44,829 nucleotides of DNA from IMG/VR virus record IMGVR_UViG_3300022821_000034, positions 1-44,829 of that record; one strand, 5' to 3'. Position numbers and translations under genes: made by a program. Shown piece by piece: positions 8,488 to 32,388 of this stretch (the first letter of the stretch is position 1; each line of letters opens with the position of its first letter). Below the pieces are notes generated by a model. That model was given only the letters and a program-made list of their open reading frames with translations, searched no databases and was not told where the DNA came from. The stretch is from a virus.

Positions 8488-9021
8488 TTATCTATTCCAT
8501 TTTCATTTATCAAAATCAAAAGTTTTTTTAAATAATGTATAACTAGCCGTATGAAATATAACTATTCATTCAGGATTCATAAATCAAGGAGCTATTTTAC
8601 TACCATTATATTTTAATTCTAGCATAACTCTATCTATTTCTTGTGTATCAAATGTTCTTTTACTTAAAACTGGTACTACTTCACAACATTTAGGTTTTGT
8701 CTTTTCGTCCCGTGTTCAAGTATTAAATAACGCAAACCTTTTTTCATTTAATCAATATGTTCTTTGTATTCAGTTTCAATATCGTTCTCAATAATGATAT
8801 CATTTTCATAATGTTAACAATTCATCTTTATTTGATTCAACTCGTAAAGCAAATCAATAATTATCAGTTTTTTTTCAAGGAGTTATAATTTTATTTCTAC
8901 TTTGTACTTGTATATTATTATTTTCATCAATAATTATACATCAATTAGTTCAATCAATCTTTTCTGTAATTACCATATTTTTTGATAATCTACCAATCTT
9001 TTCAAATTTTTTAAATTCCAT
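8488..9021 (-). CDS. RNA ligase (nucleotidyltransferase, PF09414-like), 177 aa
   Basis: Five nucleotidyltransferase motifs can be followed. TEKIDGTN holds the adenylated lysine (Lys21, motif I KxDG). VQSRNKII comes next, then ALFNTGT as motif III-like, PEGIVIF as motif IV and LFKKTF as motif V. Such enzymes seal RNA nicks through an enzyme-AMP intermediate; phages use them to repair tRNAs cut by host defence. No 5' kinase/3' phosphatase partner was found. At 177 residues it is short for Rnl2 and lacks a C-terminal domain. Eleven glycines are TGA. It is the last gene of the leftward block, next to the terminator. Confidence 0.85.
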
Positions 9022-22581: not shown

Positions 22582-22651
22582 TATATCCACCACATTTTGA
22601 CAGTGGATATATATTTTATAGTGAGTACTTTTTAGGTACCCACTTATAAAA
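22582..22651 (-). promoter_or_regulatory. Leader hairpin family, copy E4, plus a second strong hairpin
   Basis: TTTTATAAGTGGG pairs with CTCACTATAAAA around TACCTAAAAAGTA (plus 22614-22651). Immediately downstream in the transcript, ATATATATCCAC pairs with GTGGATATATAT (plus 22582-22617 region). Both lie in the 99-base gap upstream of the gene at 22413. Confidence 0.55.
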
Positions 22652-22655
22652 TATA

Positions 22656-23222
22656 TTATATTAGATATTCTAAGTTACTATCTAATATATTATTCTTTTT
22701 ATAATGTGAATTGTAAATTTTATACCCCCCACATGATGTCTTCTCTATTGTATCGTAAGCCCAAATATAATTAGACAAATTTTTACAAATAAAAACATTT
22801 AGTCCACTTTTTGGGCATACGGTTTCATACCCATCAAATTTTAATAGTGATTTTAAGTAATCACTATTTCTATTTTTTAATAAAATAGAGATAATTTTTT
22901 TTATAAATTCTTGACATTTTACAATGTCAAACTTTTTTTGTCAATTCATCTCTTTTGGAGCTTTTCTCCAATGGTGATGAATTTCAATAGATGTTTTTTC
23001 TATTGTTAACCGGTATCTTTCCGGAGCTCGACAGTCTCCAGGGTTATGGTTAATTTTCAAATTCTCAATTTGAATTAATCAACTTCAAGTAAAAAAGTGC
23101 TCCCATCATATAGCTTTATATGATGATAAAATCTTACTCAATTTGTTTTGAAGTTGAGTAAGTTTGATAACTTCACTATAAATAGTTAAATTTTTTTTTG
23201 AGTTCATAATTTTTTTTTCCAT
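22656..23222 (-). CDS. Hypothetical protein, first gene of the leftward block, 188 aa
   Basis: I do not recognise this 188-residue basic protein. It contains HNPGDCRAPERYRLTIEKTS followed by IEIHHHWRKAP, and four spaced Cys with a late CGGY. Only four TGA codons are used among eight glycines, and the G+C is slightly higher than its neighbours. As the first gene after the leftward promoter candidate (23261-23288) it should be expressed first after infection, so an early host-takeover or origin-binding role is plausible. Confidence 0.6.
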
Positions 23223-23260
23223 TTTTATTTAATAAGGGGTTAAAAACTTTGATTAATTAA

Positions 23261-23288
23261 AGTATATATATATATATTGATATTGCAA
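23261..23288 (-). promoter_or_regulatory. Leftward early promoter candidate
   Basis: On the minus strand TTGCAA (23288-23283) and TATACT (23266-23261) are 16 bases apart, 39 bases from the ATG at 23222. The spacer is an alternating AT tract. The palindrome CACAATTGTG at 23299-23308, just upstream, could be an operator. Confidence 0.55.
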
Positions 23289-23395
23289 GACTAAATTGCA
23301 CAATTGTGGACTATATTACTATAATACAAGTAAACAAGCCAAAAGAAAATGCATAATTAAATAAGATCTTAACATAATTGTATAAATTCTTGGAC

Positions 23396-23422
23396 CAGTT
23401 AGAACCGTTCGTAATCTAACTG
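23396..23422. other. Perfect 8-bp hairpin in the origin-like region
   Basis: CAGTTAGA and TCTAACTG flank an 11-base loop ACCGTTCGTAA. No T run follows on either strand. It could be a nicking or initiation hairpin or a terminator; undecided. Confidence 0.4.
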
Positions 23423-23683
23423 AATATCATCAGGACACCAAAACAATATCAAAACATTCAATAGTACGATGATATAATTATAACTAAATATCATTCAAGC
23501 CAACAACATAACATACAACAGTATCATTATTATAATAATATTTTTCTTTTTCTTTTCTTTTTCAGTTGATGAATGTTCAACTTGAAAAATAAACGCCTTG
23601 TAATTGAAAAAAGATAACAATGACACCCCAAATTCAACAACAATTCATCATCATCAACAAAATACAACTCAATAGAAATACAA
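23399..23683 (-). CDS. Uncertain ORF, possible membrane protein, 94 aa
   Basis: From TTG at 23683 the frame gives a glycine run (VVFCGGGGIVVEF, all TGA), a basic KEKKKKN stretch, then two hydrophobic segments (IIIIMILLYVMLLAGMIFSY; NYIIVLLNVLILFW) and CPDDIQLDYERF. This looks protein-like. However, there is no ATG start, leucine codons (TTG, CTG) differ from neighbours, and the other frames are also open here. It may be chance in a T-rich strand. Confidence 0.3.
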
Positions 23684-23910
23684 GTAACAACCTTATAACT
23701 TGAATTGATCCATTACATCGATGATGATGAAAGTTACATAAAATATAAATAAAACCCAAATACTTAAAAAGAAATACTGTAAAAATAGCATTGTTAAGCT
23801 AAATACTCACACACTTGAAAATTAATGATAAATCATTATAATGTAGTTTAGTTACGATAACTATAATTATCATAAGTAAAATAATACCTTATAAGTAACA
23901 CCTAACAGGC

Positions 23911-24016
23911 TATACAGTGCTAATGTTTTACTCAGATGATACAGTAATGTTTCACTGTAGTGATACAAATATGTTTTACTGTAGTAGAATGACAATGTAT
24001 TACTACAATGATACAA
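23911..24016. repeat. 24-bp iteron-like tandem repeats
   Basis: GATACAGTAATGTTTCACTG and GATACAAATATGTTTTACTG start 24 bases apart (23938, 23962). A diverged unit and a last GATACAA at 24010 keep the 24-base phase, and a related unit precedes them. Repeats with this phase (about two helix turns) are typical binding arrays for an initiator or repressor. Confidence 0.7.
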
Positions 24017-24070
24017 GGGGGTATGTCCGTTTTTGAGGTTCAAGGGCGGCAAAGTTAATGTAACACTACC

Positions 24071-24150
24071 TACATACGATATCTGTGTTCCAGCAAGCTA
24101 TACATACGATATCTACCTTACAGTAAGCCTTATAAACGATATCAGAGCAA
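24071..24150. repeat. Three 30-bp direct repeats upstream of the small terminase gene
   Basis: ACGATATC recurs at 24076, 24106 and 24136. The first two copies share TACATACGATATCT, then CAGyAAGC; the third keeps AACGATATC and AGCAAG. A 30-base period puts each site on the same face of DNA. Candidates are iterons or the packaging site bound by the small terminase. Confidence 0.7.
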
Positions 24151-24269
24151 GGGTGGGTAGGAAGTTGATAGATTAAAGGGGGGGTATTTTTAAAACGGTT
24201 GTTTCTGTAATTTGTTACGGTGGCGACTTGTATAAGTAAGCAATTTTATAATTATAAAAAGAAATAATA

Positions 24270-24638: not shown

Positions 24639-24752
24639 ATCAGAGCTTGACATTAAGAAAGTTTTTCTTATAATGGAGTGTAATATAGTGGTTTTATTAT
24701 ATGGTTCAAGCAGATATAGGGCTTAGGCACTCACTTTCTCACCAGCTCTGAT
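24639..24752 (+). promoter_or_regulatory. Nested inverted repeats enclosing a promoter
   Basis: ATCAGAGCT (24639-24647) pairs with AGCTCTGAT (24744-24752); AGAAAGT (24656-24662) with ACTTTCT (24733-24739); GAGTG (24676-24680) with CACTC (24728-24732). The promoter's -35 and -10 lie within the left arm. The pairs are nested in order, as in a long imperfect stem. Confidence 0.5.
24647..24674 (+). promoter_or_regulatory. Strong promoter TTGACA-N16-TATAAT
   Basis: TTGACA (24647-24652) and TATAAT (24669-24674), both perfect consensus, with 16 bases between. The spacer ending GTTTTTCT is shared with the promoter at 30085-30112. Transcription would begin near 24681, over 220 bases before the next ATG. 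Confidence 0.75.
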
Positions 24753-24886
24753 ACATCTTTTATATTGAAAGAGAATAAAATTAAACAGTTCAGCAGTAAT
24801 AGCGACATATTTTTAGAGATAGGGAAATGGTGGTATTACAATATAGTAAGTAATTAAGCCATGGAATGTAATGGTAATTTTTTTTT
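24681..24886 (+). ncRNA. Candidate phage non-coding RNA 1 (about 205 nt)
   Basis: The stretch runs from the start of a perfect-consensus promoter to CCAT/ATGG followed by nine T (24859-24886), a weak terminator-like end. The base composition is less AT-rich than the flanking genes. Parts of the nested inverted repeat (GAGTG/CACTC) fall in the transcript. I tested it by eye for a tRNA cloverleaf and found none. A 25-codon ORF at 24701-24778 is an alternative. It may also simply be a long leader of the gene at 24906. Confidence 0.45.
24859..24886 (+). terminator. Short hairpin with nine T
   Basis: CCAT (24859-24862) and ATGG (24871-24874) form a 4-bp stem, extended weakly by TTA/TAA, then nine T. 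A weak intrinsic terminator or attenuator ahead of the gene at 24906. Confidence 0.4.
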
Positions 24887-24905
24887 AGAAAATAAACATA
24901 TAAGA

Positions 24906-25230: not shown

Positions 25231-26268
25231 ATGAATTATTGAATACCTTATAAATGAAGTAAAAGCAGATTATGTAAATTTATTATAAAACTACTGCCTA
25301 AAGATAAACCATTACGAGATGTTTTTTGATGATGAGGGGCGGTTTCGTTATGTGCTTTAGATAGTTGATACTTTGATAGAATATATTATAATGAATTAGA
25401 TAATGATATATTCAATTTATTTTTTGATTTGTGTAAATGAAATTTAAACTTATCAAAAATTAAATCTAATTTTATTACTAGAGAAGAGTTTTTTTTAATA
25501 AAAAATAAAGAAAATAAAACGTCTTTAGACCTTGTTTATTTATTGTGTTATAGTTTTGGAAATAATCAAAAAGATTATATGTTTTGAAAAAAGATTGAAG
25601 AGTGGAAGTATTTATTACATAAATTACATTTCAAACAATGAATAAATAATCAACAAGATTTAAATTCTACTTTAAATCAGTTATCAGAAAGCAGAATATT
25701 TAAATGATGATATAAAGTATATTTTAAAATTGATTATAATGATTATAAAAATATAGATAATTTTAGATTAAAGATTAGATATTTTATAAATAAAAGGATA
25801 TTAGATTGAAAAGAGATTTGAGAAGATTATTTAAGAAGCATAATAAATAAAAAAAAAGATAAGACTACTTTAAAATATTGTTATAATCAAAATTTAAGAA
25901 GACTAGAAAGTCTAGAAAGTCTACAAAGACTACAAAGTCTAGAAAGACTACAAAGACTAGAAAGTCTACAAAGACAAGAAAGCCTAGAAAGACTTAAAAT
26001 TTTAAATAAAGATTATAAAGATTTGAATGTCCCTATTGGAGATGTTATATATTGCGATCCACCTTATGAAAACACAAGTTGATATAATGAGTTAAGCTTT
26101 AATATTGATGAGTTTTGGGAACGAGCAGAAGAAAAAAGCAAAACAAACCCTATTTATATATCAAGTTATCAATGAAGACCTTGACGAAAAATTATTAATA
26201 CTTGAAAGAAATCTATAATGAATAAAAATATATCAGATGATAAAACTGAAAAAATATTTTATAAGTAA
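25231..26268 (+). CDS. DNA adenine methyltransferase, D12 (Dam-like) class, 345 aa
   Basis: The class-defining order is present: PYKGSKSRL at the N-terminus, SAM motif DVFGGGGAVSL (residues 30-40), YYNELD, and catalytic DPPYENTSGYN (Asp276). It would transfer a methyl group to N6 of adenine, protecting phage DNA or marking it. Between the target-recognition region and DPPY lies a run of LESLQRL-type 6-7 residue repeats (about residues 228-255), which in the DNA is a repeat of CTAGAAAGTCTACAAAGA. Similar leucine-rich linkers are seen in other phage Dam-like proteins. Three of the four glycines in FGGGG are TGA. Confidence 0.88.
25906..25994 (+). repeat. Short tandem repeat in the Dam-like gene (LESLQRL linker)
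   Basis: AGACTAGAAAGTCTACAAAG-type units of 9 bases (CTA GAA AGT / CTA CAA AGA) recur about nine times. The array encodes a Leu-Glu/Gln-Ser/Arg linker and is probably variable in length. Confidence 0.8.
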
Positions 26269-26280
26269 AGAAAAATAAGA

Positions 26281-27051
26281 ATGAATAGATTGATTAAATG
26301 AGATTGTTTAGAAGAGATGGATAAATTAATAAAAGAATGAGTAAAGGTTGATGCTATAATCACAGACCCACCTTATGGAACTACAGCTTGTAAACGAGAT
26401 AGTGTTATTCATTTTGAAAAAATGCGAGAAAGATTAAATAAACTAATCAAAACTAATTGAGTTATTGTATTGTTTGGTAGTGAGCCGTTTAGCAGTGCTT
26501 TAAGAATGAGTAATATTAAAAATTACAAGTATGATTGGATATGGAAAAAGAATAAACCAACTTGATTTCAACATGCTAAAAATATGCCTTTAAAAGAACA
26601 TGAAATTTTATCAATATTTTCAAAATGAAGTATGGGACATAAAAAATTATTATGAGATAAAAGAATGATATATAATCCACAATGAATAATAAAAATAGAT
26701 AAAATTTCAAAGAGTAGTAAAAATAAATGGTGAACTATCGCTTGAAAAAGACCGTCTCATAAAGAAGAATATTTAACTGAATTTAAAAATTATCCAAGAA
26801 GTACTTTAAATTTTAAATGAGATAGATGATTACACACAACACAAAAACCAGTGCCACTAATGGAATACTTAATAAAAACCTACACAAATGAATGAGAAAT
26901 AGTATTAGACTTTACAATGTGAAGCTGAACGACTGGTGTAGCTTGTAAGAATTTAAATAGAGATTTTATAGGAATAGAGTTAGATGATAAATATTTTAAT
27001 ATAAGTAAAGAGAGAATAGAATGAATAGATTGATTAAATGAGATTGTTTAG
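26281..27051 (+). CDS. DNA methyltransferase, beta class (N4-cytosine/N6-adenine), copy 1, 256 aa
   Basis: IITDPPYGTT (catalytic DPPY, residues 29-32) comes before the SAM-binding LDFTMGSGTTGVACKNLNRDF motif near the C-terminus (quoted in part), the order of beta-class enzymes. TTQKPVPLMEYLI is the usual segment before it. Both glycines of MGSG are TGA. The first ~85 and last ~60 residues are nearly identical to the next gene, but the middle target-recognition region (about residues 85-195) is different. The C-terminus reads on through a duplicated copy of the next gene's start (GIDGLNEIV), a scar of tandem duplication. Confidence 0.88.
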
Positions 27052-27758
27052 AAGAGATGGACGGATTAATAAAAGAATGAGTAAAGGTTGATGCTATAAT
27101 CACAGACCCACCTTACGGAACTACAGCTTGTAAACGAGATAGTGTAATAGAGTTTTGAGCTATGTGGAAAAGGTTGAATAAGTTAATCAAAGATAATTGA
27201 GCTATTGTTTTGTTTGGTAGTGAACCGTTTAGTAGTGCTTTAAGAATGAGTAATATTAAAAATTATAAGTATGATTGGATTTGGGAAAAAGATAAACCTA
27301 CTAATTTTGCACAAGCAAATAGACAACCTATGAGATATACAGAATTAATACATCTATTTTATAAAAAACAACCAACTTTTAATAAAATATTAGAAGAGAG
27401 AGAGGGTAGTGGAAAAAAAAGATATAATTATATTGTTGATAATTCAAAAAGAGTATCTGACCATAATAAGATTATAGATAAACCAAAATTTTATAATAAA
27501 GACTTTAAGAATCCTAAAAATATTCAGAAGTTTTCAACCTGAAGAAGACAAAATTTACAGCACCCAACTCAAAAACCAGTAGCATTAATGGAATACTTAA
27601 TAAAAACCTATACTCTCGAATGAGAAATAGTATTAGACTTTACTATGTGAAGTTGAACAACTGGTGTAGCTTGTAAGAATTTAAATAGAGATTTTATAGG
27701 AATAGAGTTAGATGATAAATATTTTAATATAAGTAAAGAGAGAATAGAATGAAAATAG
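27021..27758 (+). CDS. DNA methyltransferase, beta class, copy 2, 245 aa
   Basis: Same layout as the preceding gene: DPPYGTT near residue 30, a divergent middle (NFAQANRQPMRYTELIHLFY), HPTQKPVALMEYLI, then LDFTMGSGTTGV. It overlaps the upstream gene by 31 bases in another frame and overlaps the large-terminase start by 10 bases. Ends are nearly identical to copy 1 at the DNA level while the target-recognition middle differs. The two enzymes probably methylate different sequences. Unlike copy 1, some glycines in the middle are GGT/GGA. Confidence 0.88.
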
Positions 27759-29083
27759 AACTACCATATAAAATAGTATTAAGACCATATCAAAGTGATG
27801 TATGGAATATGTTTGATAAATTTAAAAGGTTTGTAATGGTTCGACATAGAAGAGCTGGTAAGGATAAAGTTTCTCTACAGCTTCTTATTAGGGGGGCTTT
27901 TGAGAGGGTAGGAGTATATTATTATGTGTTTCCTGAGTATGCACAAGGTAGAAAGATTTTTTGGGATTGAATAGATAAAGATGGTTTTAGAAATATAGAT
28001 CATCTTCCTAAAGCTATGGTTGCTTCTATGAATGAGCATGAAATGAAAATTACTTTTGTAAATTGAAGTATAATTCAGGTAGTAGGAACCGATAGAAAGA
28101 TTGATAATGTTGTTGGAACTAATCCAGTTTGAGTGGTGTTTAGTGAGTATAGTATTCAGAATCCTACATGATGGAATCTTATTAGACCAATATTAAATGA
28201 AAATTGAGGTTGGGCAATGTTTATATATACCCCTAGAGGTAAAAATCATTGATGGGATTTATGTGATATGGCAAAAAGAAATGATAAGTGGTTTGTAAGT
28301 ATAAAGACAGTAGATGACACAACAGATTGAGAGGGTAAGCGTGTTCTTTGACAAAACCAAATAGATGATGAATTAGAAAGTTGAATGACACAAGATTTAG
28401 TAGATCAAGAGTATTATTGTAGCTTTGAAGCAAGTATCCAAGGTGCATATTATTCAATACAGATGAGAGAAGCAAGAGAGTCTAATAGAATTACAAAGAT
28501 ACCAATTGAAGAGGGCTTAGAAGTAAATACCTACTGGGATTTAGGGGTAGATGATTCAACAGCTATACGGTTCACACAACAAATAGGTAAAGAGGTAAGA
28601 ATGATAGATTATTATGAGAATAATTGAGAGGGTTTAGCATTTTATGTTGAGTTATTAAAAAAGAAAGGTTACTTTTATGGAATGCACTATCTCCCACATG
28701 ATGTTGAGGTAGTTGAGTTGGGTACAGGGAAAAGTAGGTATCAAACATTAAAAGAGTTAGGTATATGAAATATAAAGACAGTACCTAGACCAAGACTAAA
28801 AGAACATGCTATAGATGCAGTAAGAAGAATGTTAAAATATTGTTGGTTTGATGAGGTAAGGTGTGAATTAGGAGTAGAAGCGTTAAAAAGTTATCATAAA
28901 GTATATGATGAGAAAAGAAAAGCCTTTTCAAAAGTACCAAAACATGATTGGAGTAGTCATTGAGCTGATGCTTTTAGTTATTTAGCAATAATGGTAGAGA
29001 AAGATTTAACAACAGTAGTAAAAGAGACTAAAGCAAGAAGAACATTTATGAACCCACTTACAGGTGAGATGATTACAAGGTAA
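27749..29083 (+). CDS. terL: Terminase large subunit, 444 aa
   Basis: The ATPase motor and nuclease that packages DNA into the prohead. Walker A is the viral variant RHRRAGKDK near residues 32-40. A Walker B-like segment is VVFSEYSIQNP, and YTPRGKNHGWD is the coupling motif. The nuclease domain starts at TYWDLGVDDSTA with catalytic Asp, and later residues lie in LPHDVEV and HGADAFSYLA. A length of 444 residues is normal for the short terminase families. About 20 TGA codons. Its start lies inside the end of methylase copy 2. A hairpin follows its stop. Confidence 0.93.
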
Positions 29084-29178: not shown

Positions 29179-29841
29179 ATGGCAAGAATATGAGAAAAAG
29201 ATTTATGATGTATAGGTACTACTGTAGATTTAACAAATTTATATCCATCAGTACAACAAAAAGAGAATGAAGTTTTAGACCTTACATGATGAACATGAGA
29301 ATGAGAGACACTAACGATAGATGATTCAGACATATGGACATTCTCATGAAGATTCGTTAACGACACTTTTATCAAAAATAAACAAGAACCAAAAATGAGT
29401 AAATCAAAAGAAGAAAAGATTATATATGAAGTTTTAGAAGAAACTATAAAGCATATGGCAACAAAAAAAATGATTAATGCTTTATCAAAAGATTTAGTAT
29501 ATGCGGAATCATTTACTGGTTCTATATGAGAACCATTGTTTAAAAAATGCCATAATAAAACTTTTAACAACATAATTAAAGAACCAAAAATGAGTAAATC
29601 AAAAGAAATAAGATTTAAAAATTATATGAATGAGTGTGAAGAAGTTGAATTATCTGATATATTTGAAAGAGCTGAAGAACTTGATGAAGCATTAGAAGAT
29701 GAGATAGAGTTAAGAGAAGATATATCACATAAATTAGTAATGTTAAATGAAGGGTTAGAACAAGCTATAAAATATATGGAGATAAAAGATATAAAAAAAT
29801 ATAAAAGAGATCTAGAAGAATTTTTAGATGATAATGAATAA
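29179..29841 (+). CDS. Hypothetical acidic protein with internal duplication, 220 aa
   Basis: I do not recognise this 220-residue protein. The first ~65 residues look beta-rich and structural (GTTVDLTNLYPSVQQ; DDSDIWTFSGRF). At residues 70-79 and 135-144 the sequence EPKMSKSKE occurs twice, encoded by a 28-bp direct repeat (29384 and 29579) that each time includes an ATG. The C-terminal 85 residues are a very acidic coiled coil (DIFERAEELDEALEDEIELR). It may be three modules joined in frame, or the internal ATGs may start shorter products. Virion or head-assembly role is possible from context. Confidence 0.5.
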
Positions 29842-29845
29842 TAAA

Positions 29846-30031
29846 ATGTCAAATCAACAAAACAATAATTGAATATGATTCTTCTGACTGCTTACAATAG
29901 TATTTATAGTATTAAAACTCACTTGATACATTGATTGGAGCTGGTTACGAATTTTCTCACCATTGATAGCCAGTTTAGGGTTGTTTATGTTAGCTTTATT
30001 GATACTTTGAATAGTATTTTACTTTGAATAG
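29846..30031 (+). CDS. Small membrane protein, 61 aa
   Basis: After a short polar start, two hydrophobic segments follow: FFGLLTIVFIVLKLTG and SPLIASLGLFMLALLILGIV, joined by YIDWSWLRIF. The WSW...SPL pattern with two helices is common among small phage membrane proteins of unknown role. An in-frame ATG at 29834 would overlap the previous gene. Five glycines are TGA. A strong terminator follows 8 bases after the stop. Confidence 0.55.
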
Positions 30032-30038
30032 ATTATTA

Positions 30039-30080
30039 TTGAGGTTTTCGATAATTACCGAAAACCTCAACTTTATTTTA
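30039..30080 (+). terminator. Strong intrinsic terminator, 12-bp perfect stem
   Basis: TTGAGGTTTTCG (30039-30050) pairs perfectly with CGAAAACCTCAA (30059-30070), followed by CTTTATTTTA. It ends the terminase operon. The next promoter starts five bases later. Confidence 0.85.
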
Positions 30081-30084
30081 GGGC

Positions 30085-30112
30085 TTGACTTTTGAAAAGT
30101 TTTTCTTATAAC
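30085..30112 (+). promoter_or_regulatory. Strong promoter TTGACT-N16-TATAAC
   Basis: TTGACT (30085-30090) and TATAAC (30107-30112), 16 bases apart. It shares the segment AAGTTTTTCTTATAA with the promoter at 24647-24674, so both may be used by the same polymerase form at the same time. Confidence 0.7.
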
Positions 30113-30118
30113 TAGGAG

Positions 30119-30471
30119 TACATCATAAGTCATTTGGACACTACACTGGCAAAGATGTCTAGAGCGTGACTCTGTAAAGAGTTGTTAACACATGTTTCTA
30201 GCTAATAATAAAGTATTTGTAATCTAATTGATTCATTTATTTGATAATTTTCTTAGTTGAAGAATAATTAAATATAAAATTGACTACATTATTAAACACT
30301 TTCTTATCAGCTAGAAGCGTTCACTATAAAGAGTTATTATTAAAACTAAAAATAACTATTAAACATTAAGAATCTTCTTAATAAGATAGTAGTTATATAT
30401 AAAATCGGTTCAAATATTTTAGAAATAGAATAGTGTAAAAAAGTCGAGTATCTTAGGGTACTTGATTTTTT
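30119..30471 (+). ncRNA. Candidate phage non-coding RNA 2 (about 350 nt)
   Basis: A 488-base gap without a real gene is bounded by its own promoter and terminator. Inside, CTAGA...TCTAG encloses GTG/CAC and ACTCT-GTAA-AGAGT (about 30167-30212), a three-part stem. TTCTAGCT (about 30207) can pair with AGCTAGAA (about 30309). ATTAAGAA-TC-TTCTTAAT lies at about 30365-30382. AGAGTTGTTAA also recurs in the leader of the minus-strand gene near 21200. No tRNA shape is seen. A 16-codon ORF (ATG near 30155) inside is likely chance. A long portal leader is the alternative. Confidence 0.55.
30438..30471 (+). terminator. Intrinsic terminator at the end of candidate ncRNA 2
   Basis: AAAAAGTCGAGTA pairs with TACTTGATTTTTT around TCTTAGGG: 13 bp including two G-U pairs, with the T run in the 3' arm. 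It overlaps the -35 of the portal promoter. Confidence 0.65.
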
Positions 30472-30489
30472 AATTAAAATCATTATACT
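30462..30489 (+). promoter_or_regulatory. Promoter TTGATT-N16-TATACT for the head genes
   Basis: TTGATT (30462-30467) and TATACT (30484-30489) are 16 bases apart, 30 bases before the portal ATG. Because its -35 lies in the terminator stem, it would restart transcription for the structural operon. Confidence 0.55.
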
Positions 30490-30519
30490 AACTATAAATT
30501 ATATATATTATAAGCTATT

Positions 30520-32388
30520 ATGCCAAAGATTAATATTGAGGAAGAAATAAAAAAAGAGAATGAGTTGATGAGCGATAAAGATACTGAAACTTTATTGTAT
30601 TTCAATACAAGGTATAAAGATATGAAAGATCAAAGGTTAAGACATGAACCTGATTTTTATAGATTTGAAAAAATGGTTGATGCTCCTGTACCTGAAAGTA
30701 CAGACTGAAAAGCACAAGTAAATGTAAAGCTAGAGCAAAGTGTACTTGAAATGAGATGTTGATTGATACCAAGTAACTTACCTTATAAAGTTATGCCTGA
30801 TTGATTAATGAATATGGATATACTTGAACCAGCTAAATATGTTATGGATTTTTTTGTTGATAAAGAAAATGTAATAGAAGAAGTTAAAAGGTGGGACTAT
30901 AACAAAGGTAAATATGGTAGTTGAATATTATATACAGGTCTACGATTTGAAACTAGGACATTTAGTGAAGCTATAGAATGAGATGATATATATACACAAA
31001 AAACTAAAGAAAGTAAAAAGGTTATACGACATATTTGAACAATAGAATGGAATATACGGAAAGCATGGTTTGATGAAAGGGCTATACAAATGAAAGAATG
31101 TATGGACGAAATCTTGCAAGAAGATATATCACCTGAAGAGTTTATACTAAGATATACAGATGATAATTGAAAGCAAAAGAAATGATTTAAGTATATTTTT
31201 TCTGTTTGAACATCTACAAATGAGTACACATATTGAAAATCACGTGATAGATATACAGATAATAAAAGAAATGTAGTAATACATCATTATTATAATAAGT
31301 TATCTTGAAAATATTATATAGTAGCTAACGAAAGCTTTGTAATTTTTTCAGGAAAAATGTTAAGTAAGCATTGAGAATTACCAGCACAATTAACACAAGA
31401 GTTTCCAAGAACAGATGATTTATATGGTTATGGGTTTTGTCATAAATGTCAAACATCTAAAGCATATATAAACAATTTATTCAAAGCAGCTTTGGATAAA
31501 ACATGGAACGCTAGTTGAAGTGCTATAATAAATGTATGAAGTGAAAATCAAGATTGAGAATTTTTTCTTGACCCATGAGAAACACAAATTTGGAACTTTG
31601 TTTGATGAAGTTCACAAGTAATACCGTTTCAACCTAATGCAGATACAACACCACATCAGAATATGATGAGATTAGTTGAAGAATGGAATTTAAAACAAAC
31701 ATGAATAAGTATTGACCCACAAGCACTCTTATCAGCAAATACAGCTTTTCAAGCATGATTATTTGTAGAAGAGCAAACAGCAAGATTAAAGGTTAATAAT
31801 GAGATGAGAAATATATGATTAGACAAAGCATTAACATTAATGTTATGTAATATAAGTCAATTTGCACCATATTTGTATGCTGACCATGTGTTTTGAGATG
31901 ATAGCAAGGTTAAAAACTTTAATTGGTTAAAGATTAGGGTAGCAGATATAAAGTACAGTAAAAAAACAAAAAGATTTAAAGATAAGCCAGGTTACTACGA
32001 CTTTTTCGACCTAGATAATAAATTATTCCCTGCTTGAGCTATGATGAGTGTAAGAATAGATACTCCAACAACTCAAACAATAATGAAAAATATAGAGAAG
32101 TGAGTATTAGCTGAACAAATGCAAGCAATTGTTCAAGTATTTCAATTAGACCCTGAACAAGCTAAATCATATGTTGAACCATTAATGCAAAAGATAGTAG
32201 ATGTATATGAAATACCAAATACAAAGATGTATAAGAAACAAGATGAAAATAAAGAACAGATAAACAATATAATTGATTCTGTTAAACTAGCATGATGAAA
32301 TGTTTTACCTCCTAACACTGAATTTGATGATAAATGAACTGGGTTTGAACCAAGTAATGGTTGACAAGGTTGAGTACCACAAGCTTAA
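30520..32388 (+). CDS. Portal protein, 622 aa
   Basis: Placed right after the terminase region and directly before scaffold-like and capsid genes, this 622-residue protein has the mixed alpha/beta composition and size of podovirus portals. Visible segments are DFYRFEKMVDAPVPESTDG, KRWDYNKGKYGSGILYTG, WNASGSAIINVGSE and a helical stretch ending AEQMQAIVQVFQLDPEQAKS. The C-terminus is Gly/Pro rich (GQGGVPQA). Portals form the 12-fold ring through which DNA enters. About 32 TGA codons. The call rests on synteny and size plus general pattern, as portals diverge strongly. Confidence 0.78.

Follow-up and report, generated by a model that had tools for sequence, protein, structure and literature searches.

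In the 44,829-nt window analysed here, an entire IMG/VR virus record, we identified a putative self-contained noncoding RNA gene (30085-30472) between the terminase and head operons. On balance, the sequence makes it moderately probable that this unit is such a gene and is expressed in parallel with the terminase operon. It has a promoter of its own (P2, predicted), a terminator of its own on the coding strand (T2) and no protein-coding frame. A leader RNA of the kind known from phage lambda and a relic acting at the DNA level are the main rival explanations, whereas a packaging RNA is unlikely.

The gap and its flanking genes

A near-identical 136-bp repeat is found at both ends of the window, which on this basis is probably a complete phage genome. 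Its GC content is 25%, and genetic code 25 (TGA = glycine) is required, as long genes show up only under that reading; in seven large genes, TGA accounts for 209 of 277 glycine codons. Gracilibacteria and Absconditabacteria, as well as many phages infecting them, read their genes with code 25 (PMC10746230), and the genetic code leads us to presume a host from one of these two groups. Early genes run leftward from 23222 to 8488 and include an RNA ligase gene (8488-9021, minus strand; phrog_548, 2.6e-25), while late genes run rightward from 24270 through the genome end to 8445. Two neighbouring DNA methylase genes (26249-27753) form a tandem duplication with stretches of 87-93% identity.

The gap spans 488 bp (30032-30519) without a gene under code 25. 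It is the largest of the late half and the second largest of the genome, behind the divergent promoter region (23223-24269, 1047 bp), in agreement with an earlier sequence-only reading that had called it large for such a packed genome. The same reading had proposed about 350 bases with several stems and no real gene; indeed, no plus-strand open reading frame within 30075-30519 exceeds 34 aa (code 25), the longest, of 34 aa, beginning upstream of P2, and the whole RNA region shows a folding z-score of -4.5, in part owing to the terminator. On its upstream side, the gap borders on the final terminase-operon gene (29828-30031). The large terminase subunit TerL is 50% identical to that of Podoviridae sp. 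ct3Et533, and family scans assign the terminase to the ordinary TerS/TerL kind. Downstream lies the portal-position gene (Table 1), whose product gave no family hit in profile scans, does not align to the proteins found at that position in relatives, and yielded an uninformative AlphaFold model (pLDDT 31). Used as queries, the portal-position and capsid proteins retrieved no relatives from viral or genomic collections.

Table 1. Coordinates of predicted features in and around the gap
Feature	Position	Strand	Description
Class promoter	23473-23499	-	In divergent early/late region
Class promoter	23815-23842	+	Upstream of small-terminase-like gene; motif 23814-23840
P1	24647-24674	+	TTGACA-16-TATAAT, 12/12 consensus bases; upstream of methylase-terminase operon; class site 24646
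TerL, large terminase subunit	27749-29083	+	444 aa (code 25); phrog_2, 5e-24
T1	30039-30070	+	Intrinsic terminator, 12-bp stem then CTTTATTTT; closes terminase operon; z -6.0
P2	30085-30112	+	TTGACT-16-TATAAC, 10/12 consensus bases; class CTTGA-N17-TTATA
Predicted noncoding RNA	30119-30472	+	About 355 nt; ends placed according to P2 and T2
6-bp hairpin, GUAA (GNRA) tetraloop	30168-30183	+	Mean pairing probability 0.90; stabler on + than -
Rod, imperfect 50-bp hairpin	30192-30320	+	Pairing probability 0.93-0.96 in main stems, 0.71 at tip
17-bp hairpin	30352-30396	+	z -4.0; pairing probability 0.96
T2	30438-30471	+	Intrinsic terminator, 15-bp stem (30438-30452 / 30457-30471), 3 G-U pairs, U tract; z -6.9
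P3	30462-30489	+	TTGATT-16-TATACT; same class (site 30461); before portal-position gene; overlaps T2
Portal-position gene	30520-32388	+	622 aa (code 25); identity from position and size only

Promoters and terminators around the gap

The -35 hexamer of P2 begins 14 bases past the T1 stem and about five past its U-rich tail. Both the strong terminator at the end of the terminase operon and the near-consensus promoter five bases after it had been proposed from the letters of the sequence, and both were borne out. P2 escaped a stock promoter scan, since that scan accepts only -10 hexamers ending in T. When the gap region was compared with its own genome, the single other match (24642-24673) turned out to be promoter P1. 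P1 and P2 have AAAGTTTTTCTTATAA in common, are alike between -35 and -10 and both carry GGAGT just downstream of the -10 hexamer; a 28-nt pattern made from P1 matched P1 itself and, at one mismatch, P2, where no match is expected by chance.

Aligning P1, P2 and P3 gave the motif CTTGA-N17-TTATA, which occurs at seven sites in the genome against 0.58 expected, a number reached in 0 of 100 shuffles. Without the three promoters that defined the motif, four sites against 0.58 expected are left as independent evidence. Spacings from 12 to 22 other than N17 gave 0-3 sites each, and five of the seven class sites fall into intergenic DNA, which makes up only 10% of the genome (P = 2e-4). The sites at 23473 (minus) and 23814 (plus) lie in the divergent region, as would be expected of promoters, and the latter has AAATCATTATA in common with P3. 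Of the 12 sigma-70 hexamer bases, P3 has only 9. Upstream of the small-terminase-like gene, iteron-like repeats (23920-24160) with three copies of a ACGATATC motif could serve as an origin or as a packaging site. In 353 genomes of the Gracilibacteria class, no match to the pattern with the P1/P2 spacer was found, so that it is a property of the phage. A looser promoter pattern searched in viral contigs matched only two contigs of a single phage with standard-code genes, and these matches were judged to be chance.

T1 folds on both strands. T2, in contrast, is strand-specific, with -15.1 kcal/mol on the plus and -4.2 kcal/mol on the minus strand, since its G-U pairs exist on the plus strand alone. 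The sequence-only reading had thus rightly placed a terminator here and rightly described its 3' arm as overlapping the portal promoter (P3), while its stem measures 15 bp instead of the 13 bp given. Self-attenuation through alternative pairing appears weak: the best leader duplex with a T2 arm reaches -7.4 kcal/mol, and no leader sequence competes with T2. As P3 belongs to the same class, the portal-position gene need not rely on P2. With the RNA unit and the head operon each having a promoter, a self-contained RNA gene is favoured over a plain leader. This lends support to the earlier suggestion of a separate RNA that has a dedicated promoter and terminator, P2 and P3 being separate members of the promoter class. 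For the roles of a sponge or a late-switch regulator raised in the same reading, the evidence speaks neither for nor against.

The late leader of phage lambda (6S RNA) consists of a strong promoter, a short noncoding leader and the intrinsic terminator tR', followed by the late structural genes. Promoter, leader, intrinsic terminator and structural genes follow in the same order in the window, so that P2 might be the true promoter of the head operon and T2 an early stop that a phage factor later permits polymerase to read through, as in antitermination by Q (PMC7171158). The stretch and GGAGT shared by P1 and P2 are consistent with this, as is the fact that P1, too, is followed by about 200 noncoding bases with a weak hairpin and a U tract (24858-24887). 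That leader, however, shows no unusual structure (z +0.9), and, unlike lambda, the window has a second promoter of the same class between the terminator and the portal-position gene. PHROGs and Pfam scans of most early proteins recognised no Q protein or other antiterminator, although many of these proteins are orphans, and one may have been missed given that the three Q families have no sequence in common. Taken together, we regard a lambda-like late leader as an unlikely account of the gap.

Predicted fold and comparison with relatives

We scanned the genome without bias in steps of 136-nt segments; two peaks fell within the gap (-4.6 each, the second including T2), ranking 6th-7th on the plus strand and at the top of the late half. 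The z-score of the rod itself, -5.5 (30187-30322), is flattered by boundaries chosen afterwards. The gap region is structured beyond chance, yet the strongest structure of the genome lies elsewhere, in a 650-nt stretch at the start of the early operon (22590-23240, minus strand; z -12.6 on the minus and -10.2 on the plus strand). This stretch is overlapped by a 188-aa open reading frame (22656-23222) that has no relatives in phages or the 353 genomes, and it could be a coding region that is itself structured, or else a large RNA. An operator-like palindrome, TTGACATT-TTAC-AATGTCAA, is located at 22910-22944.

Relatives were sought through conserved TerL motifs with TGA for glycine, and one more (L019) came from a separate search; a first recoded-TerL pattern had returned only one unrelated standard-code contig. 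The resulting set comprises 17 recoded relatives, plus one contig (L144) with a single in-frame TGA, and a few of them nearly duplicate one another. In each of the 15 recoded relatives whose junction is visible, the next large (portal-position) gene begins 19-62 bp after TerL, and the cassette is absent. The sole relative with a gap after TerL, L144, has a reading frame there and not an RNA. The cassette sits exactly where the head module of the window ceases to resemble that of its relatives. Because of its absence from the 15 relatives and the unalignable portal-position protein, the cassette, together with the open reading frames 29179-29841 and 29828-30031, is lineage-specific and lies at a module junction. 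Structured gaps before packaging genes occur in two recoded relatives (L118:3182-3407, z -4.5; L120:5714-5960, z -3.2), with no sequence kinship to the RNA of the window.

This placement would also suit an explanation at the level of DNA, in which the inverted repeat at 30192-30320 is a site of recombination or insertion, or a former mobile element, at the module junction, with any RNA a mere by-product. Scores on the minus strand (-5.3 at 30182) are as good as those on the plus strand, and the rod has nearly the same energy on both (-31.1 vs -30.9 kcal/mol), as a DNA inverted repeat would, so that the rod alone is no proof of a role at the RNA level. On the other hand, the repeat lies between a suitable promoter and a terminator specific to one strand, the plus strand clearly gives the GNRA hairpin and T2 greater stability, and no second copy of the repeat was found in the genome. 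We therefore consider such a relic rather unlikely.

Searches for homologues of the RNA region, the 353 genomes and the recoded relatives included, found none, hence no covariation; the 353 genomes, all from the class to which one recoded Gracilibacteria genome belongs, gave nothing but short AT-rich matches, which were judged to be chance. Around the best matches in these genomes there were no CRISPR-like arrays, leaving a mimic of a host CRISPR repeat unsupported, and a 12-nt antisense match at the helicase start codon is at chance level in this AT-rich genome. The Rfam search proposed in the sequence-only reading matched no family: none of the covariance models, GOLLD, ROOL and packaging RNAs included, reached its gathering score or E ≤ 5. 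A packaging RNA had likewise been suggested. For one of the phi29 type, assembling with portal and motor ATPase, nothing speaks apart from a location flanked by the terminase and portal-position genes, and a promoter resembling that of the terminase operon; the ordinary TerS/TerL terminase, the absence of the cassette from 15 relatives with similar TerL and the lack of an Rfam packaging-RNA match make it highly improbable.

Known phage RNAs and a possible role

The most abundant transcript of vibriophage ICP1, as shown by RNA-seq, is a noncoding RNA of about 800 nt from a large gap without open reading frames beside late genes (PMC7567579). It resembles the RNA of the window in being noncoding, in its location in such a gap near late genes and in having no assigned role, but is longer and was seen by RNA-seq, whereas the roughly 355-nt RNA described here is predicted from sequence. 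The packaging RNA of phi29, a phage-encoded RNA of 174 nt, goes with phi29-type motors. It is likewise noncoding, whereas the RNA of the window is longer, unrelated and encoded beside an ordinary two-subunit terminase. GOLLD and ROOL are structured phage RNAs of unknown function, longer than about 650 nt, often located near tRNA genes and represented by Rfam models (PMC12286853). The RNA of the window is also structured and phage-encoded, but it is smaller, has no tRNA nearby and matches no Rfam model.

Under the preferred reading of a self-contained RNA gene, a polymerase, presumably that of the host, would start at P2; a phage RNA polymerase was not seen among the proteins scanned. The transcript would fold into the GNRA hairpin, the 50-bp rod and the 17-bp hairpin and end at T2, with the head operon initiating separately at P3. 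The near-identity of P2 and P1 makes joint expression of the RNA and the terminase operon probable. Our best guess for the function of the RNA is that of a trans-acting, stable structured RNA with a protein or a second RNA as its binding partner. Polymerase halted at T2 would incidentally sit on P3 and may delay the head genes. More speculatively, and with a low probability in our view, this could be a new class of phage RNA: trans-acting, 355 nt long, bearing a 50-bp rod and produced in concert with the terminase operon of a TGA = Gly phage, with termination on top of the promoter of the head operon setting the time of the switch to head production.

Little is known about transcription in phages that read TGA as glycine. 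This analysis yields a testable promoter motif, a map of transcription units and one well-delimited candidate RNA gene, which, if real and needed by the phage, would represent a structured RNA that is specific to phage and belongs to no Rfam family.
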